Source: Bacillus sp. REN16
GTDB taxonomy: Bacteria > Bacillota > Bacilli > Bacillales > Bacillaceae_L
NCBI RefSeq assembly: GCF_020731355.1
Contig: NZ_JAJFZK010000004.1
Span: 124,001-188,000 of the forward strand
Direction of reading: 5' to 3'
DNA length: 64,000 nt
Each line of letters starts with the position of its first letter. Position 1 is the stretch's first letter. Below are positions 10,756 to 44,940 of the stretch, one piece after another. Below the pieces are notes generated by a model. The model saw only the letters and a list, made by a program, of their open reading frames with translations, was not told where the DNA came from and did not search any database. Both the position numbers and the translations under genes were made by a program.

Positions 10756-11020
10756 TCATTAATGCTTACATACGATGAGAGGGAAGAGTACATCGAAAAC
10801 CCCTTCAGAGAGAGAAATCATTAGCTGAGAGATTTCTTAGGAATGTTACGATGGAAGGTCGCCCTTAAGTAGCTTTTATGAAGCCCAGTAGTAAAAGCCG
10901 GTGAAAAGCCGTTATCTTTTCTTGAGAGCATAGATAATCTTTATTTATCTATGAAAAAAGGTGGTACCGCGAATATACTCCATTCGTCCTTTTAATAGGG
11001 ATGAGTGGAGTTTTTTATTT
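10756..11020 (+). ncRNA. T-box riboswitch of valS (specifier GTC, valine)
   Basis: The T-box core AGGTGGTACCGCG is at 10959-10971. Stem I is readable: GAGGG pairs with CCCTT and CATC with GATG, and the internal loop between them has AAGAGTA on the 5' side and GAAGGTCG on the 3' side, placing the specifier codon GTC (valine) at 10858-10860. T at the variable T-box base fits the A discriminator of tRNA(Val). The terminator stem ACTCCATTCGTCC/GGGATGAGTGGAGT followed by TTTTTT ends the element; uncharged tRNA(Val) should favour the antiterminator. Confidence 0.95.
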
Positions 11021-13884: not shown

Positions 13885-15195
13885 ATGATACAGACGTATG
13901 AAGAGGCCCTATCTTGGATTCATGGTAGATTAAGACTTGGAATGAAGCCAGGGCTTGCCAGAATGGAATGGATGATGGAGCAGCTTAATCACCCTGAGAG
14001 AAAAATTCAAGCAATTCATGTGGCGGGGACTAACGGAAAAGGATCAACAGTTAGTTATATCCGAAATATTTTACAAGAAGCAGGTTATAAAGTCGGAACC
14101 TTCACTTCACCATATATTGAGACCTTTAATGAACGGATCAGTGTAAATGGAAAACCGATTTCAAATGATGAAATTGTCTCCCTCTTACAGGTAATAAAAC
14201 CATTGGCAGAAGAATTAGAGGAGACAGAACTTGGCGGTCCAACAGAATTTGAAGTCATCACAGCAATGGCCCTCTATTATTTCGGACAAGCATCCGACAT
14301 CGACTTCGTAATTATGGAAGTAGGATTAGGTGGAAGACTTGATTCAACTAATGTCATTACTCCTCTTATATCCGTAATCACGAGCATTGGTTTTGACCAC
14401 ATGAATATTTTAGGAGATACTATTGAAGAAATTGCCGCAGAAAAAGCGGGAATTATCAAATGGAATGTCCCTGTTGTCACAGCAGTCGAGCAGCAAAAAG
14501 CAATCGAAGTGATTAGTACAAAGGCAAAAGAGGAAAATAGTCTATTTTATCAACTAGGCCTAGATTTCTTTATCCTTGATCATCAATCAAATGATGGTGA
14601 AGCTTTTTCATTAAAAACGCAAACTACAACCTTTCAAAATTTACAAATCTCTATGAAAGGCGCTCATCAGGTGCGAAACGCAAGCCTAGCAGTAATGGCC
14701 GTTCACTTATTACAAAATAGCGGTCTTTTACAAATAAAAGGTAGTGAGCTTTCAACAGGTTTGGAGAAAACAAAATGGATTGGTCGATTTGAGGAGATTT
14801 CGAAGGAGCCACTGGTCATTCTAGACGGCGCCCATAACCCTGAAGGCATTAACAGCCTTATTAGGACAATCGAGGTTCACTTAAAGGGTAAAGACATCCA
14901 CATTATTTTAAGTGCATTAAGCGACAAAAAATTAGACACGATGATCGGAAAACTCGAAAATATCGCCAAAACATTAACGTTTACGAGCTTTGACTACCCA
15001 AGAGCTGCAAGTACCAGTGAGCTTTATGAAAATTCATCTGAGGAAGAATTTATACATACAGTGGATGATTGGCGGGAAGCAGTGAACAAGGGACTAGCAC
15101 GTGTTTCATTAGAAGAAAATGCTGCTTTAGTTATCACTGGCTCACTTTATTTTATTTCAGAAGTACGATCCTATCTTAAACATACAAGAATTTAA
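13885..15195 (+). CDS. folC: Dihydrofolate/folylpolyglutamate synthase
   Basis: ATP-dependent ligase adding glutamate to folates. The P-loop VAGTNGKGST lies at residues 46-55, followed by TSPYIETFNERI, VGLGGRLDSTN and DHMNILGDTIEEIAAEKAGIIK, all Mur-ligase-superfamily folate signatures; ILDGAHNPEGI marks the C-terminal domain. The length (436) is normal. SD GTGGAGG precedes ATG. In B. subtilis comC follows folC; here the gene is convergent with a pilin operon. Confidence 0.97.
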   Translation: MIQTYEEALSWIHGRLRLGMKPGLARMEWMMEQLNHPERKIQAIHVAGTNGKGSTVSYIRNILQEAGYKVGTFTSPYIETFNERISVNGKPISNDEIVSLLQVIKPLAEELEETELGGPTEFEVITAMALYYFGQASDIDFVIMEVGLGGRLDSTNVITPLISVITSIGFDHMNILGDTIEEIAAEKAGIIKWNVPVVTAVEQQKAIEVISTKAKEENSLFYQLGLDFFILDHQSNDGEAFSLKTQTTTFQNLQISMKGAHQVRNASLAVMAVHLLQNSGLLQIKGSELSTGLEKTKWIGRFEEISKEPLVILDGAHNPEGINSLIRTIEVHLKGKDIHIILSALSDKKLDTMIGKLENIAKTLTFTSFDYPRAASTSELYENSSEEEFIHTVDDWREAVNKGLARVSLEENAALVITGSLYFISEVRSYLKHTRI

Positions 15196-15210: not shown

Positions 15211-15252
15211 AAAAACCCAAGAATGTCGAGGAAACAAACATTCTTGGGTTTT
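15211..15252. terminator. Bidirectional terminator between folC and the minor-pilin operon
   Basis: Stem AAAACCCAAGAATG/CATTCTTGGGTTTT flanked by A-run and T-run, usable on both strands. Confidence 0.85.
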
Positions 15253-15292: not shown

Positions 15293-16711
15293 TCATCCTT
15301 GTTCCCTAATTGGTCCTGGTTCAATAATAGGTTTTGAATCACCAGGCTCATTATTTTCTGTTGGTGGATAATAAGGGATTAATTCATCATCTTCAAACTT
15401 TTCAAATTCTATTGATGCTCCACCATCAGAACGGAATGTATTACTAATAATTGAACCATACACTTTTCCGCCTCCTGTTAATAATACATGTGCATTAGGA
15501 GCTAAAATTAGTTTACTATTATTGCTTGATCCACCTTCAATGGTTAATTTGTTTCCCCCCATAATAATATGACTATTAATTGCGCCGCTACCGGTTAATA
15601 CCATGTTGGCACTTTTTGCATATAAAGATCCATAAATTTTAACACTGCCACCAAAGTTGAGTTCTTTTGAGCCTTTGTAGAAAATGTTAAGGTCTTTACT
15701 ATTCGCATTTGTGTTTACTGTACTGCTACCTGTCACTGAAAAATTTTCTTCAATCTTTAAGGTTAATTTTTTCGAATTATTTTGAGTGCCAATTATTTTA
15801 ATAAAACCTTGAGAGACATTAAGGTTTTTAACTTGAATGGTTCGATCTTGACCATTCAAATCTATCGTAAGTGTCCTGCCACTTTCTAATTTAATTTCAT
15901 TAAAATATAAATTCTTATTTAAAATAATTTTTTTGTCATTGGAAGCTCCCCCCGACAAATGGATAGTACCTTCATTTGGAAGTCCACGCTCAAATTCCGG
16001 AAAAGGAGGTAAAATATAGTTCCTCTTTTCAATTCGAGTGAAGGTAGGCTTGAAATTTGGCATGCCATATGGCATATTTACCATACTTTTTTGGGCATTG
16101 GGCGCTTTAATAGTCCCTTTAAAATTTTCCATTCCATATCCAATAGTAATTGAGTTAGCGTTAGTACCTATGCTATCAGTAGCCCCGACCCCTGTAATCA
16201 TTTCCATTACTCCATTTGAAAAAACTGCAACATCATTTAAAATCTCAATTGGGACATTACTTTCTTCATCTTGGTCCTGGTTGTTACTTCCGCAATTCAA
16301 TGAAAATGTATTTTTTACAGACCTCTTATTTCTTCCAATCTCTCCGGTGGAGGTCAAATTATAGGTATAAACATCAGTAACCTTGCTAGGTGCCCCGATT
16401 TTAATTGTTGCATTTGGAATTTCTCCAAAAGATTTTTCAAATGTGTATGTTTTGTTATCCCATTTATTTAAATTTGGGGGACATGTTGCTTGTTTGCTTA
16501 TTTCATTCAAAGCCTTCGTTGCACCTGCTTCTGCAATATAATAGGCTGATTGTTGATTATGTTCGTTAGAACTCATTTTTGCATTATTTAGTGTCAGTCC
16601 CATGATTCCTAGTCCCAAAACAGAAATGATAACAAGAACCATTAGTACCACATACAAAGCTATACCCTTTTCATTTTGAACATAATTGCGAAGATTCCCC
16701 GGTATTCTCAC
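15293..16711 (-). CDS. PilX-N minor pilin with large secreted, probably beta-solenoid, domain
   Basis: The 472-residue protein starts GTG (MRIPGNLRNYVQNEKG). A prepilin-like cleavage site follows Gly16 and a hydrophobic helix IALYVVLMVLVIISVLGLG follows directly; the mature +5 residue is Val, not Glu. SSNEHNQQSAYYIAEAGATKAL is typical of the PilX N-terminal domain. Residues about 215-440 are short repetitive strands rich in Gly/Asn/Ser (LNGQDRTIQVKNLNVSQG, LTIEGGSSNNSKLILAPNAHV), suggesting a bactofilin- or beta-helix-like fold. The tail is Pro/Glu-rich. Likely a pilus-tip or adhesin subunit (inference). Last gene of a leftward three-gene operon. Confidence 0.8.
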   Translation of the reverse strand: MRIPGNLRNYVQNEKGIALYVVLMVLVIISVLGLGIMGLTLNNAKMSSNEHNQQSAYYIAEAGATKALNEISKQATCPPNLNKWDNKTYTFEKSFGEIPNATIKIGAPSKVTDVYTYNLTSTGEIGRNKRSVKNTFSLNCGSNNQDQDEESNVPIEILNDVAVFSNGVMEMITGVGATDSIGTNANSITIGYGMENFKGTIKAPNAQKSMVNMPYGMPNFKPTFTRIEKRNYILPPFPEFERGLPNEGTIHLSGGASNDKKIILNKNLYFNEIKLESGRTLTIDLNGQDRTIQVKNLNVSQGFIKIIGTQNNSKKLTLKIEENFSVTGSSTVNTNANSKDLNIFYKGSKELNFGGSVKIYGSLYAKSANMVLTGSGAINSHIIMGGNKLTIEGGSSNNSKLILAPNAHVLLTGGGKVYGSIISNTFRSDGGASIEFEKFEDDELIPYYPPTENNEPGDSKPIIEPGPIREQG

Positions 16712-16719
16712 TGTTCCAC

Positions 16720-17133
16720 CTACTCCCGTATATAAATTTTGGTAGATAAGGTTACTTCCTGATCATTCTTATCAGAAATAGATGTGATATCTATTTGAAT
16801 TTTATTCTTATTTTTAATAACTTGCAGATCTTTAATTGATGAAACTAAGGCAGATCCTTTCTTTGTAATGGCGTTATTTTCTAATTTATAAATTGTACCG
16901 TCAATATTTAAAACATTATTAGATACTTCAACACTATTGGCTTTACGTATTTCTCTTGTAAGAATATTAATCGCTAATCTAACATTTGCCTGGTTTTCAA
17001 TCTGAGAGGTTTGATTTGATGTTTGTCTTTGACCAAATAGATGGACGGAAGTAGCCAAAGTAAGAATCAAAGTTAAAAGCGCGAGTACAGCTAATAATTC
17101 GATTAATGTAACACCTTTATTATTTCTTACCAA
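16720..17133 (-). CDS. Type IV prepilin-like protein (minor pilin)
   Basis: Protein of 137 residues with the class III leader MVRNNKG followed by VTLIELLAVLALLTLILTLA; Glu is at mature position 5. The C-terminal half is beta-rich and contains no cysteine. It resembles PulG/GspJ-type minor pilins, exported with the N-terminal helix in the membrane and processed by PilD. Start is TTG with GAGGGTG 8 bases upstream; that SD overlaps the stop of the preceding gene, so the two are coupled. Confidence 0.85.
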   Translation of the reverse strand: MVRNNKGVTLIELLAVLALLTLILTLATSVHLFGQRQTSNQTSQIENQANVRLAINILTREIRKANSVEVSNNVLNIDGTIYKLENNAITKKGSALVSSIKDLQVIKNKNKIQIDITSISDKNDQEVTLSTKIYIRE

Positions 17134-17147
17134 TTATTTCACACCCT

Positions 17148-17537
17148 CTACTGTTTCCAAGATAATAATGTTTCCATTTGGGCTTCCTTACGTCCGGTGG
17201 ACTGATTCAATACAACTACAAGCACTTTATACAAGTCTTCTTCTTTGACTATTGAAATTGTTGTATCGTATCCGTCATTCTTTGGGGTGCAGTCTCCCTT
17301 TACTTTCACGCTATTAAAGCTTGAAGTTTTGCTGCTATTATATATACATTCCATTGTATCTTGGGCAAGGTATGTAGCAACTAATGTATCCTCGGAAATT
17401 TTATTTGTTTTTGCGGATTGAACAAACATTGTTAAAAAAGAAACTACAATAATGGATAGAAGTACAATTGATATAAGAATTTCAATTAAGCTAATTCCCT
17501 TTTCTGTGAAAATTGATTTATTTAAGAGCCTGCCCAA
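17148..17537 (-). CDS. Type IV prepilin-like protein (PilV/GspI-like minor pilin)
   Basis: Protein of 129 residues with leader MGRLLNKSIFTEKG, then ISLIEILISIVLLSIIVVSFL with Glu at mature position 5. Two cysteines (CIYNSS and GDCTPK) about 20 residues apart could form a surface disulfide. First gene of the leftward minor-pilin operon. Start TTG; upstream AAAGGTTGTGAT is a plausible though imperfect SD. Confidence 0.85.
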   Translation of the reverse strand: MGRLLNKSIFTEKGISLIEILISIVLLSIIVVSFLTMFVQSAKTNKISEDTLVATYLAQDTMECIYNSSKTSSFNSVKVKGDCTPKNDGYDTTISIVKEEDLYKVLVVVLNQSTGRKEAQMETLLSWKQ

Positions 17538-17872
17538 TTACAATCACAACCTTTATGATGTAAAAATTATTAATTCGTTACCAATTACCTATTTTCCACT
17601 ATTATACGACATTATTTTACAAATACGACATTAGATTTTATATTTCATTTTCAAAGGATAAAAAATGTCACAAATAACAACAAAATATACGAAAATTCGT
17701 CTTTTGTATTTTCATATTTTCATATAGAATGTAAGATGAAATATAGGAATAAATTACTAGTCAGTTTTATTCCTATTATGGAAAATCATGTGATTGAACT
17801 GGGGACACTACAACCTAATAGAAATAGATCATTTTTAAGCAGAACTAAGAAGTGTAAGCAAGGGGGACAAAC
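17538..17872. promoter_or_regulatory. AT-rich divergent control region between the two pilus operons
   Basis: The 335 bases have no gene. For the leftward operon the minus strand has TATAAT (17606-17601) with GTCGTA 17 bases upstream; the 10-base sequence ATACGACATT occurs twice on the plus strand (17604 and 17623), 19 bases apart, so one copy overlaps each hexamer. For the rightward operon TAGAAT lies at the end of CATATAGAATG near 17730, followed by a perfect 11-base hairpin ATAGGAATAAA/TTTATTCCTAT at 17743-17776. No c-di-GMP riboswitch motif was seen. Confidence 0.5.
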
Positions 17873-19216
17873 ATGCTAAAGATAAAGATGGTTAAAGTTT
17901 TTAGTCTACTCTTAATCTGCGTGTTATTTATATCGCTTTTTTCGACAATCGGTGCGACAACATATCATGCATTTTTTGGAGGAAACTCTTTTAAACAAGG
18001 CACAATGATAGGTCCCGTAGATGTTTCAGGTCTTACAGAAGAGGGTGCAAAAGCAGCCTTATTAACAGAGGTTGAAACCTGGTATGAAATGGGGCAAATC
18101 TCAATTGTAAAAGAAGATGAAAATGTTGTACTGCAAAAGCGACAAGTGTATAGCTTTGATATTCTTAAAAGTGTAAGTTCCGCTATTGATGGTAAGCAGA
18201 ATCCACTACTTGCGGATATCAAAGATGAAGAATTTGAAACTATGATCAATGAATTTAATCAGACAGATACACAGGATCTTAAATCTGAAGAGTTTAAAAA
18301 TGATTTGTTACAACCAGCGGTAACCTTACATCCAGGAGAAGTAGTATTCAACCTCGCACAGTTTATAAAGGTTGATGAAGGAAATGTTGTAGCACAAGCT
18401 CTTGTAAGTAATATAAGAGATGAAAGTGAACTCATAAAATGGGTTAAAGAGTTTGGGAACATCAATGTTCCAGCTAATACCCCATTATCCTTATATACAT
18501 TTCTGAAAGAGAATGATGTATTAAATAAATTTTCAAATGAAACATTAAGCATGATAGCAACTGGGATATATTCAACCGTTCTGCCAACTAATTTTGATAT
18601 CGTTGAGCGTCATATAAGCGATATCCTGCCACCTTATGCAACTTTCGGAAATGAAGCCATGATTGAAAAAGAAAAGAAGGATTTTATTATTTATAATACG
18701 AACCCTTATGAATATAGATTTGTCTTTTCTTTAACAGACAAAGGTTTCGAGGTTCAACTTACAGGTGCCCAAATGCCGCAAACCATTAGTATTTCAATAA
18801 GAGATGAAGAATCGTTTAAACCGAAAATAATTAAGCAATTTGATAGTACCCTAAAGAAAGGACAAGTTGTTGTCAAACAAAAAGGGACTCCCGGCCAGGT
18901 AGGTAAAATATATCGGATCGTCAAAAAACAAGGGCAGCTTGACCAAAGCGTGCTTGTCGCACAAGACTACTATCCGCCAATTCCGAAAATCGAAGTGCAG
19001 AGTATTGTAGTCCCAGAAGAGGAACAACAAAACCCTACCGGACAAGAGCAAGATATATCAAATCCTGATTCGAACCAAAATCCTCCTACGAATGATTCAG
19101 AAGGGAAAAATGGAGAAAATGATCAGTCAGGTAACGATACAGATGAAAATGGTAATGATAACTCAGATACGGACCTTTGGGAAGATCCTGATCCATTGCA
19201 TTTACAAAAGTCTTAG
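17873..19216 (+). CDS. VanW-like / G5-like extracytoplasmic protein, first gene of pilus operon
   Basis: 447 residues. One N-terminal membrane segment (VFSLLLICVLFISLFSTIGATT), then GTMIGPVDVSGLTEEGAKAAL, which resembles the peptidoglycan-binding repeat of YoaR/VanW proteins. Near residues 225-285 SMIATGIYSTVLPTNFDIVE and ILPPYATFGNEAMI follow the end of a VanW domain. A G5-like region follows (FDSTLKKGQVVVKQKGTPGQ) and a polar Asn/Asp/Gly-rich tail. The usual VanW block ending GGGICQVSS is not recognisable. It lies 15 bases before pilB, so a role in passing or anchoring the pilus in the wall is inferred. Confidence 0.65.
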   Translation: MLKIKMVKVFSLLLICVLFISLFSTIGATTYHAFFGGNSFKQGTMIGPVDVSGLTEEGAKAALLTEVETWYEMGQISIVKEDENVVLQKRQVYSFDILKSVSSAIDGKQNPLLADIKDEEFETMINEFNQTDTQDLKSEEFKNDLLQPAVTLHPGEVVFNLAQFIKVDEGNVVAQALVSNIRDESELIKWVKEFGNINVPANTPLSLYTFLKENDVLNKFSNETLSMIATGIYSTVLPTNFDIVERHISDILPPYATFGNEAMIEKEKKDFIIYNTNPYEYRFVFSLTDKGFEVQLTGAQMPQTISISIRDEESFKPKIIKQFDSTLKKGQVVVKQKGTPGQVGKIYRIVKKQGQLDQSVLVAQDYYPPIPKIEVQSIVVPEEEQQNPTGQEQDISNPDSNQNPPTNDSEGKNGENDQSGNDTDENGNDNSDTDLWEDPDPLHLQKS

Positions 19217-19231
19217 GAAAGGGGAAACTCC

Positions 19232-20887
19232 ATGCGTATAACTCGAAAACGGCTAGGAAATTTATTGGTAGAATCTGGTCTTATTTCGGAAGACCAGCTA
19301 CAACAGGCCCTAAAGGATAAGACGGAATCACAGAAGCTGGGTGATATCTTACTTCAAAAAGGATTTATTACAGAACAACAATTAATTGAGGTTTTAGAAT
19401 TTCAATTAGGAATTCCGCATGTCAGCTTATTCCGATATCCTATTGACGCATCTTTAATATCACTAATACCTAGGGAAATGGCTAGAAGGTATTTGTTGAT
19501 TGCCCTTAGAAAAGAAGGGGACAGGCTCTATGTGGCAATGGCTGACCCGATGGACTTTTATGCAATCGAAGATTTACGTCTGAGGACAGGCTTTCACATC
19601 GAACCTGCCATTGCTTCAAAAGATGAGATTTTACGTGCAATCAATAAGTTTTATGACTTAGACGATGGGATCAAAGAGTTTCTAGATGAGACACCAACTG
19701 AAATACAAGAGGAAAAGATAACAAATGAGGACGCACCAGTCGTTAAATTAGTAAATCAAATTTTACAAAATGCAGTTCAACAGCGTGCAAGTGATATTCA
19801 TATCGATCCTCATGAAACAAAGGTAATTCTGCGTTATCGAGTAGATGGGGTGCTGCGTACAGAAAGAACCTTACCGCGCAGTATGCAAAGTGTCCTAACA
19901 GCACGTATTAAAATTATGGCAAACTTAGATATTACGGAAAGTCGTATCCCTCAGGATGGACGGATTAAAGTAAGTTTGGAAGCACATCATATTGATTTAC
20001 GTGTTTCTACTTTACCAACGGTATTCGGTGAAAAAATTGTACTGCGTGTGTTGGATATGAGTAGTTCGCTTAATAATATTTCACAATTAGGATTCAATAA
20101 AGTTAACTTAGAACGGTTTAAGAAATTAATTCAACAACCGACTGGAATCGTTTTAATAACGGGTCCAACAGGTTCAGGGAAATCGTCCACCCTTTATGCT
20201 GCCTTGAATCAGCTAAATTCAGAGGATGTAAATATTATTACCGTTGAAGATCCAGTGGAGTACCAACTAGAAGGCATTAATCAAATTCAGGTAAACCCAA
20301 ATGTCGGTATGACTTTTGCCAAAGGACTTCGTGCAATTTTACGGCAAGATCCCAATATTATTATGGTCGGAGAAATTCGTGACAGTGAGACGGCGGATGT
20401 TGCTGTAAGAGCATCACTAACTGGGCATTTAGTATTAAGTACACTTCATACCAATGATTCGCTTGGAACAATCACACGTTTGATCGATATGGGGGTTGAA
20501 CCATTCCTTGTTGCGTCATCTTTATCAGGAGTCGTTTCCCAACGCTTAGTTCGCCGTGTATGCCGAGACTGTGGTCAGTTACATGAACCTACCGTTCGAG
20601 AACTTGAAATTTTCGGGAGACGAGGCATTACCATCGATAAAGTGAATCGAGGCAGAGGTTGTGGAACATGTAATATGACAGGTTATAAAGGAAGAGTAGC
20701 CATTCATGAGCTATTAGTTCTTAATAATGAGATGAGACGAATGATTATGAATAAAGAGCCATACTCAAGCCTTCGAGAGGTCGCAATAAAAGATGGAACC
20801 ATCTTCCTGATTGATGATGGTCTATTAAAGGTAAAGCAAGGGATTACGACAACCGAGGAAATACTTCGCGTAGCAACTGCTGAATAG
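19232..20887 (+). CDS. pilB: Type IV pilus assembly ATPase PilB (GspE/PulE family)
   Basis: Cytoplasmic hexameric ATPase for pilus extension. The N-terminus holds two 24-residue MshEN-like motifs (residues 7-30 from RLGNLLVESGLIS and 35-58 from KLGDILLQKGFIT) that in related ATPases bind c-di-GMP. Walker A GPTGSGKSS is at 311-319, the Asp box ITVEDPVEYQ follows, Walker B is IIMVGEIRDSETA, and the zinc tetracysteine is Cys444, Cys447, Cys477, Cys480. The length (551) is that of PilB rather than the shorter ComGA. SD GGAAAGGGG precedes ATG. Confidence 0.93.
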   Translation: MRITRKRLGNLLVESGLISEDQLQQALKDKTESQKLGDILLQKGFITEQQLIEVLEFQLGIPHVSLFRYPIDASLISLIPREMARRYLLIALRKEGDRLYVAMADPMDFYAIEDLRLRTGFHIEPAIASKDEILRAINKFYDLDDGIKEFLDETPTEIQEEKITNEDAPVVKLVNQILQNAVQQRASDIHIDPHETKVILRYRVDGVLRTERTLPRSMQSVLTARIKIMANLDITESRIPQDGRIKVSLEAHHIDLRVSTLPTVFGEKIVLRVLDMSSSLNNISQLGFNKVNLERFKKLIQQPTGIVLITGPTGSGKSSTLYAALNQLNSEDVNIITVEDPVEYQLEGINQIQVNPNVGMTFAKGLRAILRQDPNIIMVGEIRDSETADVAVRASLTGHLVLSTLHTNDSLGTITRLIDMGVEPFLVASSLSGVVSQRLVRRVCRDCGQLHEPTVRELEIFGRRGITIDKVNRGRGCGTCNMTGYKGRVAIHELLVLNNEMRRMIMNKEPYSSLREVAIKDGTIFLIDDGLLKVKQGITTTEEILRVATAE

Positions 20888-20899
20888 GTGGAGAACAGT

Positions 20900-21946
20900 A
20901 TGAAAGAAAAAATAAACCAAATATTACTTTCAGCACATGAATTAAAAGCTTCTGATATTCATATCACAGCCGGTGTTCCCCCTATCTTTCGAATTAATGG
21001 GGATTTAAAGAGATATGGCAAGGAAATGATTTTGCCAAACATGATTGACTCGATTGCTAAGGCAATTGTACCAGAAGATATGTGGTTGTATTTCAAAGAA
21101 AAAGGAGAACTTGATTTCTCATATGGAATCCAGGGTGTCTCACGGTTTCGTGTAAATTTATATAAACAGAGAACAACTCTCGCAATTGCATTTCGCGTGA
21201 TACCTACCGCAATTCCAACATTTGAGGAACTTGAACTTCCGCAGGTATTAAAGAAAATTTGTCAAAAACCCCAAGGTCTTGTTCTCGTTACAGGGCCGAC
21301 CGGAAGCGGGAAATCGACAACACTTGCATCCATGATTCAATTTATTAATCAAACAATGAGTAAACATGTAGTCACTCTTGAAGACCCAATTGAATACCTG
21401 CATAAGCATGGCGCTAGTATCATTGAGCAGCGAGAAATTGGAAGTGATACACTTAATTTTGCGAACGGACTTCGTGCAGCACTTAGGCAGGACCCTGATG
21501 TGATCCTTGTAGGTGAAATGCGAGATTTAGAAACCATTCACACAGCCATTACAGCAGCTGAAACGGGTCATCTTGTGCTTGGTACATTACACACAGTTAG
21601 TGCACCATCAACGATTGAACGGATTATAGATGTGTTTCCATCTTCACAGCAACCGCAAATTAGAATTCAACTTGCTAATGTGCTTGTAAGTGTGATTTCG
21701 CAAAGGCTTTTTCCAACAGCTAATCGAAAGGGCAGGAGAGCAGCAACCGAAATTCTGATTAATAACTCAGCAGTTGCCAATTTAATTCGCAATGAAAAGA
21801 CTCATCAAATTAAAAATGTAATGCAGACAAGCCGTGCTGAAGGAATGCACACACTGGATAGTAACCTAATAGATTTAGTCCGTGCCGGGACTATTTCAAA
21901 GGATGTTGCCCAACCTTTCTTACAGGAGACCATGAATAATGCCTAG
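20900..21946 (+). CDS. pilT: Type IV pilus retraction ATPase PilT
   Basis: PilT/VirB11-type ATPase of 348 residues. Walker A GPTGSGKST lies near 132-140, the Asp box VTLEDPIEYLH and Walker B VILVGEMRDLETI follow, with the His box TGHLVLGTLHT. AVANLIRNEKTHQI corresponds to the AIRNLIRE motif needed for retraction in the family. It lacks the zinc tetracysteine, separating it from PilB. I start at the ATG 12 bases after the pilB stop; GGTGGAG lies 6 bases before it. Its presence implies retractable pili. Confidence 0.93.
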   Translation: MKEKINQILLSAHELKASDIHITAGVPPIFRINGDLKRYGKEMILPNMIDSIAKAIVPEDMWLYFKEKGELDFSYGIQGVSRFRVNLYKQRTTLAIAFRVIPTAIPTFEELELPQVLKKICQKPQGLVLVTGPTGSGKSTTLASMIQFINQTMSKHVVTLEDPIEYLHKHGASIIEQREIGSDTLNFANGLRAALRQDPDVILVGEMRDLETIHTAITAAETGHLVLGTLHTVSAPSTIERIIDVFPSSQQPQIRIQLANVLVSVISQRLFPTANRKGRRAATEILINNSAVANLIRNEKTHQIKNVMQTSRAEGMHTLDSNLIDLVRAGTISKDVAQPFLQETMNNA

Positions 21947-23144
21947 ATATAAGTATGAGGGACGAGACAAATATGGAAAAAAATCCGGCACAATATCTGG
22001 AACGTCTAAGACAGATGCAGTAGCAAATCTAAGGCAAAAAGGAATCCGAGTTACGAATATAAATGAAATTCCTGAAACCTTACTAACAAAAGAAATTGCA
22101 ATTGGAAGTCCAGTAAAATATAAAGATTTCGTTATCTTTTTAAGGCAATTTGCTACACTTATCAAAGCTGGGGTTACGATTGTTGATACGATGAATATTT
22201 TGGCGAATCAAACAAGCAGTAAGCCTTTAAAAAATGCTTTACTTGAGGTAGAAGAAGACCTAAGGGAGGGTATTTCCTTATCGGCAGCAACAGCAAAGCA
22301 TAAACGAATTTTTACAACACTTTTTACAAATATGGTACGGGTTGGTGAGGTTGGAGGAAATCTTGATGACACTCTGGAAAACCTTGCAGATTATTATGAG
22401 AAGCAAAATAAAACAAGACAAAAAGTAAAGTCGGCAATGGCATACCCTGCGGTTATTGGGGTTGTTGCAGTAGCTGTCGTTATCTTTTTATTAGTTTCTG
22501 TTGTACCAACTTTTGTCGATATGTTTGCAGACTTTGGAGCTGAGCTGCCGGCTATTACCAAATTTGTCTTAAATGCAAGTGAATTTATGCAGCAATTTTG
22601 GTGGCTTGTCATTTTGATCTTTATTTTTATTTTTCTGCTCTTCACGATTATAAAACAAAGAAAAGAAACTAGGTATTATCTTGATTTTGTATTATTAAAA
22701 ATGCCGATTTTTGGAACACTAATGCAAAAAGCGGCCCTTGCTCGAATGACAAGAACATTAGCTTCTATGTTAAGCAGTTCTGTTCCGATATTACAGGCGC
22801 TTGCAGTTGTGGAAACAATTGTTGAAAATGAAGTGATTGCAGATGTTATCAAACAATCAAGGAAATCACTAGAACAAGGTAAGTCCATGACAGAGCCAAT
22901 GAAAAAGCATTGGGCATTTCCGCCACTCATTACTCATATGATCGCAATTGGTGAAACGACAGGATCTTTGGATGAGATGCTAGGTAAGGTAGCGAATTTC
23001 TATGAAGATGATGTAGAGAACACAACGGATCAATTAAAATCACTAATTGAACCACTTATGATAGTATTCTTAAGTAGTATAGTAGGGACTATTGTCACAG
23101 CTATTCTTGTACCAATGTTTGATATATTTAACCAAATTCAATAA
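21939..23144 (+). CDS. pilC: Type IV pilus inner-membrane platform protein PilC
   Basis: Polytopic GspF-family protein of 401 residues with two GspF domains (FVIFLRQFATLIKAGV near residue 65 and ALARMTRTLASMLSSSVPIL near 265) and three membrane helices. It connects the PilB/PilT motors with the pilin. SD CAGGAG lies inside pilT and the reading frames overlap by 8 bases. Confidence 0.93.
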   Translation: MPRYKYEGRDKYGKKSGTISGTSKTDAVANLRQKGIRVTNINEIPETLLTKEIAIGSPVKYKDFVIFLRQFATLIKAGVTIVDTMNILANQTSSKPLKNALLEVEEDLREGISLSAATAKHKRIFTTLFTNMVRVGEVGGNLDDTLENLADYYEKQNKTRQKVKSAMAYPAVIGVVAVAVVIFLLVSVVPTFVDMFADFGAELPAITKFVLNASEFMQQFWWLVILIFIFIFLLFTIIKQRKETRYYLDFVLLKMPIFGTLMQKAALARMTRTLASMLSSSVPILQALAVVETIVENEVIADVIKQSRKSLEQGKSMTEPMKKHWAFPPLITHMIAIGETTGSLDEMLGKVANFYEDDVENTTDQLKSLIEPLMIVFLSSIVGTIVTAILVPMFDIFNQIQ

Positions 23145-23289
23145 TTTAAATGGTATTTTATCTTTTTCTACAAAAATCGCTCAAAATTTCGTTTGTTTCC
23201 AACAAATAAGTAGTGTATTCTACATGGTTTGCAATTATAATGAATAGTATAAATGGACTAGTTCCGTGTAAAAAGGAGAGGAAAAATAA

Positions 23290-23751
23290 ATGCTGAAAAA
23301 GTATTTAAAAAATCAAAAAGGTTTGACGTTAATTGAGTTATTAGCAGTAATCGTAATTCTAGGGATTATTGCGGCGATTGCAATACCGAGTATTGGAAAA
23401 ATATTGGATAATTCAAACAAAGATGCTCATGTTTCGAATGCTGAAGCGATAGTTAATGCGGCTAAGTTATATGTTTCATCTCAAAATCAGTCAATTTCTG
23501 CTGCCGAGGCAACACCAACAAATATAACACTTGAAGAACTTATTAATAATGGTTTCATGGATGAGATTAAGGATCCTAGTAATAAAAGTTCAACATATAA
23601 TCCAAAAACAACTTTAGTTGCTATTCATAAACCCGCTGGATCAGGTACTGTTTATAAAGTAACTCTTGTATCACGACATGATCCAGCGAGAACTTATTTA
23701 GACGCGATAAATATAAACGATTTGGATAGAGCGGATGTTAAAAATAATTAA
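23290..23751 (+). CDS. pilA: Major type IV pilin (prepilin)
   Basis: 153 residues, leader MLKKYLKNQKG then LTLIELLAVIVILGIIAAIAIP, the strongest prepilin signature of the cluster with Glu at mature position 5. The mature protein (about 142 residues) has no cysteine, so the C-terminal domain is not disulfide-bonded. It has its own 145-base upstream region with TATAAT near 23240 and an SD AAAGGAGAGG, and is followed by a strong hairpin; both suggest separate high-level expression, as for a major subunit. Calling it major rather than minor is inference. Confidence 0.85.
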   Translation: MLKKYLKNQKGLTLIELLAVIVILGIIAAIAIPSIGKILDNSNKDAHVSNAEAIVNAAKLYVSSQNQSISAAEATPTNITLEELINNGFMDEIKDPSNKSSTYNPKTTLVAIHKPAGSGTVYKVTLVSRHDPARTYLDAININDLDRADVKNN

Positions 23752-23770
23752 TTGATGAAGTAGATTAATA

Positions 23771-23815
23771 AAGTATATAGATGAATTATCTCGTTATTTC
23801 ATCTATATACTTTTA
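23771..23815 (+). terminator. Hairpin between pilin gene and pilD
   Basis: Perfect 15-base stem AAGTATATAGATGAA/TTCATCTATATACTT followed by TTAATTTC. The weak T-run suggests partial termination or a 3' stabiliser for pilin mRNA, with some readthrough to pilD. Confidence 0.65.
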
Positions 23816-23832
23816 ATTTCAAGGAGATAGAA

Positions 23833-24591
23833 ATGATAATAACGATTTATTTATATATATTTATCGTTGGGCTTTTGCTAGGCTCCTTCTTCAATGTAGT
23901 CGGCCTACGAATCCCAGCCGGTGAATCAATCGTTCGCCCACGTTCAGCATGCCCGACTTGTAAGCATCAGCTGACGGCAATTGAATTAATACCGGTATTT
24001 TCATACATACTCCAAGGTGGCAAATGCCGAAATTGTAAAACACGCATTTCACCTATTTATGCATCTTTTGAATTAGTAACCGCAATTCTTTTTACGATTT
24101 CACCATTGTTGGTGGGATGGTCAAAAGAATTGATTATCGCTTGGACGTTAATTTCCTTATTAATGATCATCTTTGTTTCAGATCTTACATACATGATTAT
24201 CCCAGATAAAGTGCTTCTGTTCTTTGCACCGGTTTTCATCATTGAACGTATTTTCATTCCACTTGAACCGTGGTGGGACATGCTAGCCGGGAGTATCGTC
24301 GGATTTCTTCTCCTTTATCTAATCGCTATTATCAGTAGAGGAGGCATGGGCGGTGGAGATATTAAGCTTTATGCAGTTCTTGGACTTGTATTGGGCTGGA
24401 AACTTGTTCTGTTATCGTTTTTCTTAGCAACCATCTTTGGTACTGTGATTGGACTTTGTGGAATGGTCATTGGTAAAGTAAAGAAAGGGAAACCCATGCC
24501 TTTTGGTCCATCCATCGTCATTGGGACCCTCCTTGCATACTTTTTTGGACAAGACATTATCTCGTGGTATATTGAACTATTCGTACATTGA
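23833..24591 (+). CDS. pilD: Prepilin peptidase / N-methyltransferase (A24 family)
   Basis: 252-residue membrane aspartyl protease that cleaves prepilin leaders after Gly and methylates the new N-terminus. The N-terminal methylase segment has Cys40, Cys43, Cys65 and Cys68 (CPTC...CRNC). Catalytic aspartates are Asp117 in VSDLTYMIIPD and Asp176 in GGGDIKL. It occupies the place of comC in B. subtilis and could also process competence pseudopilins encoded elsewhere (inference). SD AAGGAG. Confidence 0.95.
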   Translation: MIITIYLYIFIVGLLLGSFFNVVGLRIPAGESIVRPRSACPTCKHQLTAIELIPVFSYILQGGKCRNCKTRISPIYASFELVTAILFTISPLLVGWSKELIIAWTLISLLMIIFVSDLTYMIIPDKVLLFFAPVFIIERIFIPLEPWWDMLAGSIVGFLLLYLIAIISRGGMGGGDIKLYAVLGLVLGWKLVLLSFFLATIFGTVIGLCGMVIGKVKKGKPMPFGPSIVIGTLLAYFFGQDIISWYIELFVH

Positions 24592-24608
24592 TTTAAAGGG
24601 GATACATA

Positions 24609-25583
24609 ATGGCTTTTACACTATTTTCATCAAACAAAATGGCAAATATTATTATTAAAGATCATGCGATCAGATATGTGGGTGTGAAGCAAACAAACCC
24701 TATTACCGTTCAAAAGTTTCGTGAAAAATATTTACCCCCTGGTATTATTCAAGAAGGAAGAATAATTGAAAGGGATACACTACTTTTAATTTTAGATGAG
24801 TGTGTGTCAGATTGGGGAATAAAAAAAAATCATGTTCAATTTGTGATTCCAGACCCTTTCGTGGTGATTCGCAAAATAACAATCCCAAATGAAGTAAAAG
24901 ATGATGAGATTTTAGGATATATCTATTTGGAACTTGGCACAACCATCCATCTTCCTTTTGAGGAACCTGTTATTGATTTCAAAAAGCTTACAGAGGATGA
25001 AACCCGAAAAGAAGTACTCATTATTGCTGCACCTGAGGACGTTGCGTCCGAGTATTCTTCGTTATTAGAAGAGGTAGATTTAAAGCCAGTAGCAGCTGAT
25101 ATTACACCACTATGTATGTATCGTCTCTTTCATTTTTGCGATAAAACAAAAGAGGAAGGTCATTCATTGCTTATACAGTTTGATCTACAATCTGTTAATT
25201 TGAGTATTTTTCATCAAGATGTACCTTTGTTTATGAGACATATTACGTTAGAAACATCCATAGAAGATTGGGATATTCAACAAAATAATTCTCATACATT
25301 AGCGGATATACGATGGAATAGTCATCGAAGTAAAATAGAAGTTCTAATGGATGAATTAATCAAAGAGATAGAGCATGTGATGAATTTTTATAGCTTTAAT
25401 ATGACTCAGGGGAAGGAAAGGATTACCAATATATTAATGAGCGGTGACCATCCATATCTTTCAGGCATTAGGACAACACTAAAGCAAAGATATGAAATAC
25501 CGGTTCAAACCATTGATAAATTTGAACAGCTTCCTGCCCATTATTATTTACCATTAGGATTGGCTCTTAAAGAGGTGCAATAA
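24609..25583 (+). CDS. pilM: Type IV pilus biogenesis protein PilM (actin-like)
   Basis: 324 residues of the PilM/SHS2-FtsA-like ATPase family: NIIIKDHAIRYVGVKQ at the N-terminus, VIPDPFVVIRKITIPNEV near 80-97, LLIQFDLQSVNLSIFH near 190. It should bind the cytoplasmic N-terminus of PilN. The usual leading glycine loop is weakly conserved. SD AAAGGGGATA. The stop overlaps the pilN start by one base. Confidence 0.85.
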   Translation: MAFTLFSSNKMANIIIKDHAIRYVGVKQTNPITVQKFREKYLPPGIIQEGRIIERDTLLLILDECVSDWGIKKNHVQFVIPDPFVVIRKITIPNEVKDDEILGYIYLELGTTIHLPFEEPVIDFKKLTEDETRKEVLIIAAPEDVASEYSSLLEEVDLKPVAADITPLCMYRLFHFCDKTKEEGHSLLIQFDLQSVNLSIFHQDVPLFMRHITLETSIEDWDIQQNNSHTLADIRWNSHRSKIEVLMDELIKEIEHVMNFYSFNMTQGKERITNILMSGDHPYLSGIRTTLKQRYEIPVQTIDKFEQLPAHYYLPLGLALKEVQ

Positions 25584-26269
25584 TGCTAGTAGATATTAAT
25601 TTACTTCCTAGAAAAGAATATAGAAATAGAGCTAATTTATTTCTTGTCATACTTATCGTGATTGTTGCCTTAGTTGGCTTTCTTTTTGTTTTTTTACAAC
25701 TAAATAAAGCTCATGCACTTGAAAAGGATCTTAACAATCAACTTGTAACAGTTCAAGCAGCCAGAGTTGCTGCCGAAGAAGAAGGTGCAGTTTCAAATAA
25801 TTCAAATAGTGTTCTACAGCTAGAAAGAACAGCAGAATGGGCGGATGCTTATTTTGTTGAAACAGTTCCGATCTTAAATCACCTAACGAAATTATTACCG
25901 GAACGAGGATTTGTTCAATCCTTTACCTATTCAGATACCGGTGTTATTTCTTTTGAAGTCCAGTTTGATACGAATACCGAGGTTGCACATTATTTAGCAT
26001 TGCTTAATGAATCTCCTAACTTTGAATCAGTCAAGCTGTTTACTGTATCAACTAGTCCGCTAACTGAAGAGGTTAATGAAGAGGATGTAGGACAAGGGAA
26101 TGAAACAAATAATGAGTCGAACCCTACTAATACTGAAGGCAATGTAACGTTACCTAATAATGCGACTAAAACAGATGCAAATGATAACATTTTACCAAGA
26201 TATTATGCACAATTTGAATTAATTATTAACAAGGCTGCATTTAATACGATAGAAAAGGAGGGTGACTAA
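25583..26269 (+). CDS. pilN: Type IV pilus protein PilN
   Basis: Bitopic membrane protein of 228 residues. The diagnostic cytoplasmic N-terminus MLVDINLLPRKEYRN is the PilM-binding INLLP motif; one TM helix follows (LFLVILIVIVALVGFLFVFL), then a coiled coil and an extracytoplasmic domain with an Asn/Thr-rich insertion near 175-205. It forms the alignment subcomplex with PilM and PilO. Confidence 0.88.
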   Translation: MLVDINLLPRKEYRNRANLFLVILIVIVALVGFLFVFLQLNKAHALEKDLNNQLVTVQAARVAAEEEGAVSNNSNSVLQLERTAEWADAYFVETVPILNHLTKLLPERGFVQSFTYSDTGVISFEVQFDTNTEVAHYLALLNESPNFESVKLFTVSTSPLTEEVNEEDVGQGNETNNESNPTNTEGNVTLPNNATKTDANDNILPRYYAQFELIINKAAFNTIEKEGD

Positions 26270-26270
26270 T

Positions 26271-27062
26271 ATGACTCTCCATTTCTCACGAAAACAGCTT
26301 ACTCTTTTAATCCTTTCAACTGTTGTCTTACTTGGCTTATCTTATTTAGCCTATTTTTTACTAGTAACACCGGTCAATCAAAAAATCTCTCAGCTAGAGA
26401 ATAGTTTGAAAACGGAACAAAGACTGTTAGAGTTGGTTTCTGAAAAAAGTACTACTGAGGAAGCTATTGTTAGCTCGACTGAGATTCAAAAGAAAATACC
26501 GGTAATCCCATTAGTGGAACAAATCATTTTGGATATAGAACGTGCCGAAACCTTATCTGAAAGTAAAGTTACCAACATGTCCTATAGTGAAAATGAATTT
26601 ATTTTAGATGAAGAATCTCAAACTGAGGGACAGGAAGAAGTAACAGAACCTAACGATACAACTGAAACGGTAGAGGTTGCTCCAGACAAGACCACGCAGG
26701 CTGAACAACCTGAGGAAGAGAATACATTCGATCCTGAACTAGTAGATGGTTTAAGTCTAGTAACGGTTACATTGAGTGTTGAATCTCCAAATTATAGTGA
26801 ATTGGAGAAATTCTTGTCGGTTGTCGAACATCAAACAAGAATAACGAAGGTTGATGCATTAAGCTTTACGGGTACATCGGAGCTGACTTCAATCGAACAA
26901 GTTCCTGCACCGCTAGTGTACAATGTGACAATATCTTCATTCTACATGCCAAAATATAAGGATCTTGCTGAAGAGGCACCTAGACTAACGGTACCACCCC
27001 CAGGAAATAAAAAAAATCCGTTGGCTACTGGTTTAGAAAATGAAAGCAAAGATAGTCAATGA
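26271..27062 (+). CDS. pilO: Type IV pilus PilO-like protein
   Basis: About 263 residues: short cytoplasmic start, one TM helix (LTLLILSTVVLLGLSYLAYFLLV), coiled coil (QKISQLENSLKTEQRLLELVSEK), and an extracytoplasmic domain split by an acidic Glu/Thr-rich insertion near 120-155; FLSVVEHQTRITKVDALSF near 185 is the ferredoxin-like PilO core. I start at the ATG preceded by AGGAGGGTG inside pilN. No PilP or secretin follows, as expected for a single-membrane cell. Confidence 0.82.
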   Translation: MTLHFSRKQLTLLILSTVVLLGLSYLAYFLLVTPVNQKISQLENSLKTEQRLLELVSEKSTTEEAIVSSTEIQKKIPVIPLVEQIILDIERAETLSESKVTNMSYSENEFILDEESQTEGQEEVTEPNDTTETVEVAPDKTTQAEQPEEENTFDPELVDGLSLVTVTLSVESPNYSELEKFLSVVEHQTRITKVDALSFTGTSELTSIEQVPAPLVYNVTISSFYMPKYKDLAEEAPRLTVPPPGNKKNPLATGLENESKDSQ

Positions 27063-27079
27063 TTAATAAACCTATATGT

Positions 27080-27106
27080 ACGAGGCATGATTTGTCTCGT
27101 TTTTTT
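27080..27106 (+). terminator. Terminator after pilO
   Basis: Stem ACGAGGCA/TGTCTCGT (one G-U pair) followed by seven T. It separates the core pilus operon from the next gene. Confidence 0.75.
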
Positions 27107-27135
27107 AAGAAATTATAGATGGATGTGATAACAGC

Positions 27136-28404
27136 TTGGAATCGCTACTATTTGCAATTATTTCGCTTCTTCTAATTCTGCCTATTATCTATTTTATTCC
27201 CTTTGGTTTTACGAAGAAGGGAAAAATTATTATTCTAATAAGTGCTTTTATTGTATTTATTATAGGTTTAGCGGCAAGGACAGTAATGAGCGTATGGCAA
27301 ACTGGGATTGTGTTAATACTGCTAGCAATAGGGGTTACATATATTTTAGCCACCCGATTCGGTAATAAGCTATTTGAAAAAAACGAATATGAATTGGGTT
27401 CAGAGAATAAAGTGATTAAGTTTGAACTTGAAGATGGTATAGAGGAAGAAATGCGTAGTCAGGTGGTACATAAGGAAGAGCTTATTCTTCCTACTTTCGA
27501 ACCGTCTGCTTCCTTATCTATTCCGGAGCAAACAGATGAAAATCAATTAGAAAATACGGATTTCCTTGATGAAACAATAGATGAACGGTTTGAATTGGAA
27601 GAAGTTTCAGAAGTACAAAATGAACTGAACAATGAGATCGTGTATGAGGAAATCGAAGATAAAAAGGAAGTTCAAATAAGTAATAATAATAACCTCGATG
27701 ATTTACTGAAGGAATTAGAATTGGAGTTAGAGACAGCTAATCAAAAAAGCGAAGAAGCCGACGAAGCTGTTGTCGAAACAACTGTCAATAATGATAATAT
27801 AGATGAGCTTGAAGAAATAGAAGTTAAGGACTTATATACCTATTCGCAACCTGAACTTGAGGAAATCAATATTGATAGTTTACAAGTAGCTAACGATCAT
27901 CAAGAGGAAGAATTAATCGATATTGCAGATGAAACAAATGATGAGGTAATGGAAGTTATTGAAGATACAAAAATAGAAGAATATTCGGAAGATGAAATCA
28001 TACCAAATAATAGTCCATCGGATTCCGAAATGAAAAACGAATTACTCGAAATTAATGAGAACGATGTAAATCTTCATAATCAAGAACCTGAAGTAATTGA
28101 TATTCAAGAAGAAAAAGATGTAACGAAACAATTACTTTTCAATTCTATGGTGTCTCAAATCAATCTCTCTAAGAATCAATTATCAAGTACACAATATGAA
28201 AAATTGATAGTAGATCACCTTCATCCCGGAATGTCTGATCATGATTATTATACTTTTGTCAGCTTATTAATTGATCATTATATAGAAACGAAACAATACG
28301 AGGAACTATCTTCATTAATTTCCAAAAATATGAACAGATTCAAGGAATATCCTGTTATTTTACAGGAAATTAACTTTTTGTTAGAAGAATATTGCAAAAT
28401 ATGA
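27136..28404 (+). CDS. Unknown acidic membrane-anchored protein at end of pilus locus
   Basis: 422 residues, TTG start with GGATGTGAT 6 bases upstream. Two or three hydrophobic helices fill residues 1-70, followed by an extremely acidic low-complexity stretch (about 95-330; for example ELEEIEVKDLYTYSQPELEE) and a folded helical C-terminus (from QLLFNSMVSQINLSKNQLSS to NFLLEEYCKI) that could form a small helical hairpin or TPR-like domain. I do not recognise the family. Same strand as the pil genes but after a terminator. A link to pilus function is only positional. Confidence 0.7.
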   Translation: MESLLFAIISLLLILPIIYFIPFGFTKKGKIIILISAFIVFIIGLAARTVMSVWQTGIVLILLAIGVTYILATRFGNKLFEKNEYELGSENKVIKFELEDGIEEEMRSQVVHKEELILPTFEPSASLSIPEQTDENQLENTDFLDETIDERFELEEVSEVQNELNNEIVYEEIEDKKEVQISNNNNLDDLLKELELELETANQKSEEADEAVVETTVNNDNIDELEEIEVKDLYTYSQPELEEINIDSLQVANDHQEEELIDIADETNDEVMEVIEDTKIEEYSEDEIIPNNSPSDSEMKNELLEINENDVNLHNQEPEVIDIQEEKDVTKQLLFNSMVSQINLSKNQLSSTQYEKLIVDHLHPGMSDHDYYTFVSLLIDHYIETKQYEELSSLISKNMNRFKEYPVILQEINFLLEEYCKI

Positions 28405-28479
28405 CGAAAAATAACGAAAAGCATGGTAGAATAAAATGAAAAAGCCGTTTTAAACATGAATAGGTGTGGTGAATGATTT

Positions 28480-29292
28480 ATGAAAAAAAGTGTTGAAATC
28501 GTTGGGTTACCAATCATAAGTATTATAGATGGTGTAGAAATCGGAAAAGTAAAATCTTTAGTTATTAACCCTGAGAAAGGCTCAGTCGACTTCCTGACAA
28601 TTGAACATGAAGATTGGCAGGTAAGTGTAAAAGCCATTCCGTTCAAAAGAGTGGTTGGAATCGGAGAATACGCGGTTACCATTGAAAGTGAAAGCGCCGT
28701 AATTGATTTAAATGAAATTCCGATTGCGAATACACTTGTTAATAAGAAAATTAAAATTACAAATACAAAAGTAATGACAAGAAAAGGGCAATTATTAGGG
28801 GAAGTCCTTGAATATTATGTTGATGATGAATCCGGAAATCTATTAGGAACATTATTAAATGTTTCTGGCAATGAGGTTGCTTTACCTTCTGATTCTGTCC
28901 TTACATATGGAAAAGACATTATCATTGTTGAAGAAAATGCTTCATCTAAATTCCTTGATTCAGTAGAGTCATTAGAAAATCCACAACCGGAGTCTACTGA
29001 AACTCAATCAAATGAAATCATCGAAGAACTACTCCCTGCATCAACAGATGAACAAGGTCCATTTGATGAAATTAATGCGTCAATCGATAAGCACGAAGAG
29101 TCTGAATCAAAGGCATTACGTTTAAAACAAGTTGACCTACTTTACGGTAAAGTTGTGAAGAAAGACATTCTGGACAATGAAGGAAATATACTAATTCCAG
29201 CTGGAACTCATTTATCCGTAGATGATATTATTAAAGCCCAAGATCTAGGACCAAGTGTATTTGTTGAATTATCAATGAATGTTGAAGGATAA
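28480..29292 (+). CDS. Protein with two PRC-barrel domains
   Basis: 270 residues, no signal peptide. The first PRC-barrel-like unit is SVEIVGLPIISIIDGVEIGKVKSLVINPEKG; the second begins near residue 95 with TNTKVMTRKGQLLGEVLEYYVDDESG. An acidic linker (about 160-205) leads to a C-terminal domain with LYGKVVKKDILDNEGNILIP, resembling an AfsA/SpoIIAA-unrelated barrel repeat. PRC barrels bind proteins or RNA; the role here is unknown. TAGAAT preceded by TG near 28427 is a possible promoter, giving its own transcript. Confidence 0.7.
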   Translation: MKKSVEIVGLPIISIIDGVEIGKVKSLVINPEKGSVDFLTIEHEDWQVSVKAIPFKRVVGIGEYAVTIESESAVIDLNEIPIANTLVNKKIKITNTKVMTRKGQLLGEVLEYYVDDESGNLLGTLLNVSGNEVALPSDSVLTYGKDIIIVEENASSKFLDSVESLENPQPESTETQSNEIIEELLPASTDEQGPFDEINASIDKHEESESKALRLKQVDLLYGKVVKKDILDNEGNILIPAGTHLSVDDIIKAQDLGPSVFVELSMNVEG

Positions 29293-44850: not shown

Positions 44851-44940
44851 TGTAGCACCCAATGCTACAACCGCACATTCCAGGTATGTAAGTTTCCAGT
44901 AATGGAGCGCCTGTGTAGTGGCGAGTCTTAGTCCAAATTA
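44851..44940 (+). ncRNA. L21 leader (ribosomal protein leader of rplU)
   Basis: The transcribed leader begins with a hairpin TGTAGCA/TGCTACA, followed by CCGCACATTCCAGGTATG and GGAGCGCCTGTGTAGTGGCG, which can form a second stem. Position and size match the Firmicute L21 leader, thought to give feedback control by L21. Assigned by context and structure, not by alignment. Confidence 0.7.

Follow-up and report, generated by a model that had tools for sequence, protein, structure and literature searches.

Why does the chromosome of Bacillus sp. REN16 carry the genes of a whole type IV pilus at the position of comC, and what does this mean for species such as Bacillus subtilis, in which comC stands there alone? 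The locus lies between folC and a spoIIB-like gene in a stretch of 64,000 nt (contig NZ_JAJFZK010000004.1, positions 124,001 to 188,000), which we call the window and to which plain coordinates refer. It is a genuine and common type IVa pilus locus. We consider it highly probable that such retractable-pilus loci occupy a fixed chromosomal address, where they have been repeatedly lost with the prepilin peptidase kept and also replaced in place by foreign blocks. Judging from the genes carried, the pilus would actually be made and would retract.

Fourteen open reading frames (ORFs), each taken at full length, lie between folC and the spoIIB-like gene, and all are open. On the plus strand a VanW-G5 gene is followed by pilB, pilT, pilC, a prepilin gene, pilD, pilM, pilN, pilO and genes for a 422-residue and a PRC-barrel protein, while the minor pilin genes pilV, pilW and pilX are on the minus strand. 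The borders of this slot are valS-folC on the left and the spoIIB-like gene with maf-radC-mreB on the right. A sequence-only reading of this DNA had described such a complete set with the comC-like peptidase gene embedded in it, and this description holds: every named gene is a full ORF with its families matched, pilD sits between the prepilin gene and pilM, and besides the three minor pilins there are three uncharacterised genes, those of the VanW-G5, 422-residue and PRC-barrel proteins. Pfam families above their curated cut-offs are PilX_N, DUF7305, VanW, G5, T2SSE, MshEN, T2SSF, A24_N, A24, PilM_2, PilN and PRC; N_methyl passes in two of the four pilins, falls just below in the 129-residue one and is absent from PilX, and no Pfam family matches the 422-residue ORF. 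With pilB, pilC, prepilin and peptidase together in a single locus the set has the hallmark of a type IVa system, and against the model of the PilT/PilU type 4a family (TIGR01420), which has a cut-off of 319, PilT reaches 483 bits. The base complex is accounted for by PilM and PilN above cut-off and by PilO, weak yet in the expected place. Walker A boxes, the CxxC pairs and GGGD of PilD and the INLLP of PilN are present, motifs that we assume to be functionally significant.

The core genes look to be under constraint. Between the window and its congeners G006 and G001, omega (the ratio of nonsynonymous to synonymous rates) is 0.02-0.11 for pilB, pilT, pilC, pilD and pilM, 0.09-0.22 for pilN and pilO, and 0.22-0.56 for the four pilins, values that are rough because the synonymous divergence (dS) exceeds 1 for most genes. 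The inactivating mutations that would have undone the sequence-only reading are absent, the core genes being intact. The pilins are variable: where PilB is 86-94% identical to that of congeners, the major pilin is 41-52% and the minor ones 27-49% identical.

The rest of the genome fits this assignment. A single comG operon lies about 190 kb from the locus (L006); ComGA, GB, GC, GD and GF pass NCBIfam cut-offs, and GE and GG fall short with their own models as best match. With this seven-gene operon sitting elsewhere, the pil locus itself does not qualify as a Com pilus. No A24_N prepilin peptidase other than the window pilD was found in the genome, which makes it very probable that this one enzyme serves the pil and the ComG systems alike. 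Only PilB, PilT and ComGA match T2SSE above cut-off, and thus no Tad ATPase is seen in the genome; ComEC is present. Secretin (PF00263) has no match in the genome, as expected in a monoderm and no bar to a type IVa assignment. A further prepilin-like ORF of 132 residues lies outside both pilus loci (G000:C31:14180-14248).

How widespread is the locus, and does it keep its place? PilT, counted as a match to window PilT at E 1e-60, is found in 111 of 149 genomes and 64 of 81 genera (a sample including the window's genome), and in 288 of 398 genomes of the phylum sample, where most of the matches listed are outside the class. We counted PilT rather than PilM since PF11104 also matches ORFs of about 720 residues, presumably FtsA-like proteins. 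The A24_N peptidase is present in 148 of the 149 genomes (one copy in 147, two in G102) and is kept in 37 of the 38 that lack PilT. For gene order we took 100 same-order regions around PilD (one around PilT/PilM) and later two more, giving 102 loci from 100 genomes; the first 100 regions cover the 37 PilT-less genomes with peptidase (one region each) and comprise 63 from 61 of the 111 PilT-bearing genomes. Another 40 loci from other families of the class were likewise located via PilD. A locus was called full if it had pilB, pilT and pilC, and slot genes were valS or folC, or the spoIIB-like gene, maf or radC, within the stretch read.

The 102 same-order loci include 62 full ones, of which 52 show slot genes: 21 on both sides and 31 only on the right, where many of the stretches stop short of folC and two cases depend on the spoIIB-like gene alone. 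The remaining ten show no slot gene. Of the 40 same-order loci that are not full, 29 show PilD flanked on either side by slot genes (two of them lie in genomes, G102 and G052, with a pil locus elsewhere) and 11 show no slot gene. In the other families 24 of 40 loci are full, 16 of these with slot genes, and 5 of the 16 non-full loci have a slot gene. Named genomes with an in-slot locus include Heyndrickxia, Metabacillus, Neobacillus sp. PS3-12, Domibacillus, Planococcus and Virgibacillus senegalensis. Three of the five non-full loci with a slot gene hold PilD alone (L232, L247 and L253); the other two are L246, where the pil genes have a different order and miss the length rule, and L241, which has no pilT and has folC in the opposite orientation. 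The clostridial loci among 80 named loci have no slot gene labelled within the stretches read, many of them short. The VanW-G5 gene accompanies 51 of the 62 full same-order loci.

Several arrangements at the slot deserve mention in their own right. Comparison of L089 and L093 reveals a pil locus with its own pilD off-slot in G102, with comC alone in the slot, and a similar order (pilA-pilD-pilVWX-pilMNO-pilBTC) inside the slot in G103. In the congener G008 (L079, G008:C25:29800-49700) two tandem pil loci flank the spoIIB-like gene; their PilT proteins are 88% and their PilB proteins 91% identical (one PilB is cut), and pilD accompanies only one of them in the stretch read. In many relatives (L114, L082, L134 and others) folC is separated from the pil or comC genes by some 2 kb that probably hold another gene; the window lacks this stretch. 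L141, recorded as Chryseobacterium sp. ISL-80, shows a Bacillaceae-type valS-folC-pil-spoIIB-maf region, and so its name is probably wrong.

What happened where only the peptidase is left? We searched for remnants at E 1e-4 in 39 loci without the full set (those of the 37 PilT-less genomes plus the slots of G102 and G052). Four of the 29 in-slot loci lacking pilBTC still hold some: G040 keeps vanW, pilD, pilM, pilN and pilO with no pilB, pilT or pilC; G085 has a 58-residue PilO end adjoining pilD; G111 has a 72-residue PilX end and a short PilM; and G114 has PilM in two pieces and PilN. Further, G027 (flanks out of view) has no pilB and just the end of pilT, G097 has a pilA-like ORF, and G100 and G129 carry pilB and pilC but lack pilT, and show no slot gene in the stretch read. 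The remaining loci yielded nothing at this threshold apart from two gene pairs, a TadA-type ATPase and platform gene in G061 and a like pair in G127. L053 and L074 (family f46) have no slot genes near PilD and an ATPase and platform gene 3-5 kb away; the PilB-like gene adjoining PilD in L053 was considered as comGA and rejected, its best model being the TadA family, just under its cut-off. On a midpoint-rooted tree of flank proteins, comprising the 86 of 143 loci with two of Maf, RadC and MreB (57 full, 4 partial, 25 with none), the full or not-full state changed at least 20 times. Since remnants persist in four of the 29, loss has recurred and B. subtilis is probably reduced as well; the gene content supports more than one reduction toward comC alone, and the lone comC, also that of B. 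subtilis, would be the leftover of a pil locus. The nearest loci to B. subtilis, judged by Maf (PDB 1EX2, which we take to be from this species), are those of G125 (79% identical) and G058 (64%); two other genomes with their family code (f43), G096 and G719, carry the full locus.

Loss is only part of the history, as the trees of the block and of its flanks disagree. In quartet comparisons over 33 complete loci, where chance agreement is one third, flanks and pil genes agree in 0.44, compared with 0.83 within the pil block, 0.58 for RadC against MreB and Maf, and 0.67 for flanks against SpoIIB. PilD, for which the sequence-only reading had suggested trees, sides with pil (0.60) more than with the flanks (0.44). 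Of the families with several loci, 23 of 26 form a single clade in the flank tree and 7 of 19 in the pil tree (both fast trees). Exchange is clearest in G002, a member of the window's genus: its ValS, FolC, Maf, RadC and MreB are 80-99% identical to those of the window and its SpoIIB 69% (congeners 71-76%), but its PilB, PilT, PilC and PilD 54-64%. The genus is one clade with support 100 in the flank tree, whereas in a quick pil tree of 30 chosen loci the grouping of four of its members was rejected by the approximately unbiased (AU) test with p 2.7e-94, the odd identity of G002 having been noticed before the test. These protein comparisons show a foreign pil block between native flanks in G002. 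The block of G010, of the window's family, falls with another family, while that of the window forms a fully supported clade with those of G006, G001, G009 and G011 of its own family and is thus no recent arrival from afar. The trees show that descent of the block was not simply vertical and that it was exchanged at a fixed slot, so that a full locus in a given species may be a regain. The exchange would have taken place by homologous recombination within the flanks, possibly by way of natural transformation.

A number of points weigh against our interpretation. The 63 PilT-bearing regions were hand-chosen for spread over families, and because loci were fetched by PilD, its presence in the slot is to some degree a product of the sampling; 21 of the 102 same-order and 19 of the 40 same-class loci show no slot gene. 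PilN and PilO are weakly matched. Agreement of PilD with the flanks is just 0.52 in quartets of 21 PilT-less loci. Over 61 loci the distances of pil and of flank genes are correlated beyond chance (r 0.52, with 0 of 999 permutations as high; 0.38 within the order), so part of the history is vertical, and flank-pil quartet agreement over these 61 loci is 0.52 (0.46 in the order, 0.68 among the 15 outside it); we relied on quartets of complete sets because the distance correlation is blurred by missing flank genes. Given exchange in place, a full locus could in some cases have been gained by a slot that held only comC, and a lone PilD occupies the slot at L232, L247 and L253, from three families outside the order. 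G125 and G058 have comC alone in the slot and no remnant at E 1e-4, and the case for loss in B. subtilis is therefore one of synteny. That B. subtilis is the reduced state, as first suggested, thus gains from the recurrent reduction and the four loci with remnants, and is weakened by these two neighbours and by the possibility of regain.

Could the full locus then be ancestral and purely vertical, every comC-only lineage having simply lost it? The use of one slot by many families in the order and elsewhere in the class, the remnants and the correlated distances would be accounted for, but the break-up of family clades from the flank tree to the pil tree speaks against it and the foreign block of G002 already contradicts it by the AU test, which leaves the block as purely inherited cargo quite improbable. 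In the opposite scenario comC alone would be ancestral and pil blocks would have been repeatedly inserted beside it via recombination between the conserved flanks. The demonstrated exchange in place, the closer tracking of the pil block by PilD and the lone in-slot PilD outside the order are all in its favour. We nevertheless think it unlikely, as remnants show losses, nine of the ten outside-order loci in the flank tree are full (with a root that is merely midpoint), and families f186, f188 and f213 have in the slot the order pilBTC-A-D-VWX-MNO that is shared with the non-Bacilli loci L164 and L186. That the genes instead build a type II-like secretion pseudopilus and no surface pilus is barely credible: PilB, PilC and PilO do resemble parts of type II systems and PilX shows a weak GspK match, but PilT is far over the type 4a cut-off and PilM is present, and the secretin and lack of a retraction ATPase that mark type II secretion are the reverse of what is found here.

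Under the interpretation that we favour, a type IVa locus at one address, folC to spoIIB-maf, lost many times there with the peptidase retained and also replaced in place by foreign blocks, the genes would build the retractable pilus of a monoderm spore-former. PilD would mature the pilins, those of ComG included, PilC with PilM-PilN-PilO would form the base, PilB would extend and PilT retract the fibre, and the PilV-PilW-PilX trio would start it and bear a beta-solenoid receptor at the tip. PilX is predicted to combine a pilin and a beta-solenoid in one chain, and is likely the tip subunit. Its model (mean predicted local distance difference test score, pLDDT, 74) matches ComZ and ice-binding solenoid proteins in fold, with the solenoid at 154-438 well matched and the pilin fold match spanning 44-472; the returning strand at 462-470 has a pLDDT of about 50-60, and the insertion of the solenoid in the sheet is only suggested by the model. 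A sequence search of PilX against the PDB gave nothing at E 1. The VanW-G5 protein probably has an N-terminal membrane helix and an extracytoplasmic body; its model (mean pLDDT 80) matches G5 folds, and all matches below E 0.001 are G5-domain proteins, judged by their titles. The 422-residue protein profile may have drifted among far relatives.

The minor-pilin cassette (15293-17537) is inverted relative to the congener loci L080 and L260, and its strong divergence gives the impression that it was exchanged separately. An invertible switch was considered and rejected: exchange of the cassette fits better, because only weak inverted repeats surround it and its sequence differs strongly from that of congeners.

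Table. Features of the pil locus and its borders in the window.
Feature	Position	Strand	Basis
valS, precedes folC	11168-13813		
folC, left slot border	13885..15195	+	Mur_ligase_M/C, ORF
Perfect 15-nt inverted repeat between folC and pilX	15212..15252	.	
pilX, K-type minor pilin without Glu5, predicted beta-solenoid	15293..16711	-	PilX_N, DUF7305
pilW-like minor pilin, J/ComGF type	16720..17133	-	N_methyl; ComGF model E 5e-8, below cut-off
pilV-like minor pilin, I type	17148..17537	-	N_methyl just below cut-off; PilV model E 2.9e-9, below cut-off
VanW-G5 protein, upstream of pilB	17873..19216	+	VanW, G5 families
pilB, extension ATPase with MshEN domain	19232..20887	+	T2SSE 1.8e-138, MshEN 3.8e-25
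pilT, retraction ATPase	20888..21946	+	TIGR01420 483 bits; PDB 2ewv PilT E 3.1e-106
pilC, platform protein	21939..23144	+	T2SSF, two stretches, 8.3e-67
Major prepilin	23290..23751	+	N_methyl 1.4e-8
pilD/comC, prepilin peptidase	23833..24591	+	A24_N with A24
pilM	24609..25583	+	PilM_2 8e-19; PDB PilM 3jc8 E 4e-14
pilN	25583..26269	+	PilN 1.1e-6
pilO	26262..27062	+	T2SSM 4.5e-4 (below cut-off), position, profile of relatives
Terminator-like hairpin 3' of pilO, possible end of vanW-pilO operon	27080..27100	+	pattern scan
422-residue protein, hydrophobic N-terminus	27136..28404	+	ORF; 57% identical homologue in G006
PRC-barrel protein	28480..29292	+	PRC family; homologue in 19/62 full same-order loci
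spoIIB-like gene, right slot border	29463..30545	+	position, sub-threshold SPOR match
maf, right flank	starts 30761		
radC, right flank	starts 31457		
mreB, right flank	starts 32298		

The inverted repeat downstream of folC is probably terminator-like for both strands. Pattern scans for promoters and terminators gave match counts no higher than in shuffled sequence, so the operon ends are weakly supported. The name spoIIB is our assumption from the presumed position of that gene in B. subtilis; the SPOR match is weak (E 0.076, below cut-off), with no NCBIfam match. At the gathering threshold Rfam places no family inside the pil locus; outside the locus, the window has matches at 10766-10994, 44859-44938 and 63228-63294, comprising a T-box leader ahead of valS, an L21 leader and a Bacillaceae-1 RNA.

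In 2011 pil operons were reported for some Bacilli, namely Bacillus sp. NRRL B-14911 (B. infantis) and two Geobacillus as well as one Exiguobacterium, with pilT noted for some Gram-positive operons (Imam et al., 2011; PMC3244431). As in the window's genome, the operons there stand alongside a separate com operon in Bacillales, and B. subtilis 168 is listed with one com and no pil operon, in line with what was first claimed for it. The available portion of that text gives no chromosomal address, link of comC to the pil slot, loss series or in-place exchange, and in the open papers searched we found no account of the shared address, its link to comC, the remnants or the exchange. The phylogeny of the superfamily has been treated (PMC6668835) and monoderm type IVa pili have been reviewed (PMC10191384); those of the Streptococcus sanguinis type have like machinery without secretin and modular minor pilins, whereas the window locus encloses the peptidase required by ComG and adds the VanW-G5, PRC and 422-residue genes. 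ComZ of Thermus thermophilus (PMC6561018) resembles the predicted PilX as a pilin with a large beta-solenoid, and both solenoids align with the ice-binding protein FfIBP, although the two differ in that there is no sequence match at E 1 and the solenoid insertion of PilX is only suggested by its model. The spore-former Paenibacillus thiaminolyticus Mbale (PMC9765702) has a pil operon with pilT in an order near that of B. infantis, reported within a mobile element, while the slot proteins of the window match no mobile-element family.

It is possible, if doubtful, that the folC-maf interval of Bacilli is a fixed trading address of whole pilus systems, with the B. subtilis comC as its minimal allele. 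On such a reading all alleles would keep pilD/comC because competence needs it, and the block may aid the DNA uptake behind its own exchange, since it carries a DNA-receptor-like tip pilin and a retraction motor. Whatever the merit of this wider view, the interest of the locus lies in the fixed address around comC, the stages of loss caught in relatives and the replacement in a close one, which is a clear example from nature of one surface machine taking the place of another between native flanks. The findings point to tractable spore-formers for the study of monoderm type IV pili and of whether a PilT can retract the Com pilus. In their light the classic competence gene comC of B. subtilis is probably all that is left of a retractable-pilus locus, one still present in about three in four of the sampled relatives.

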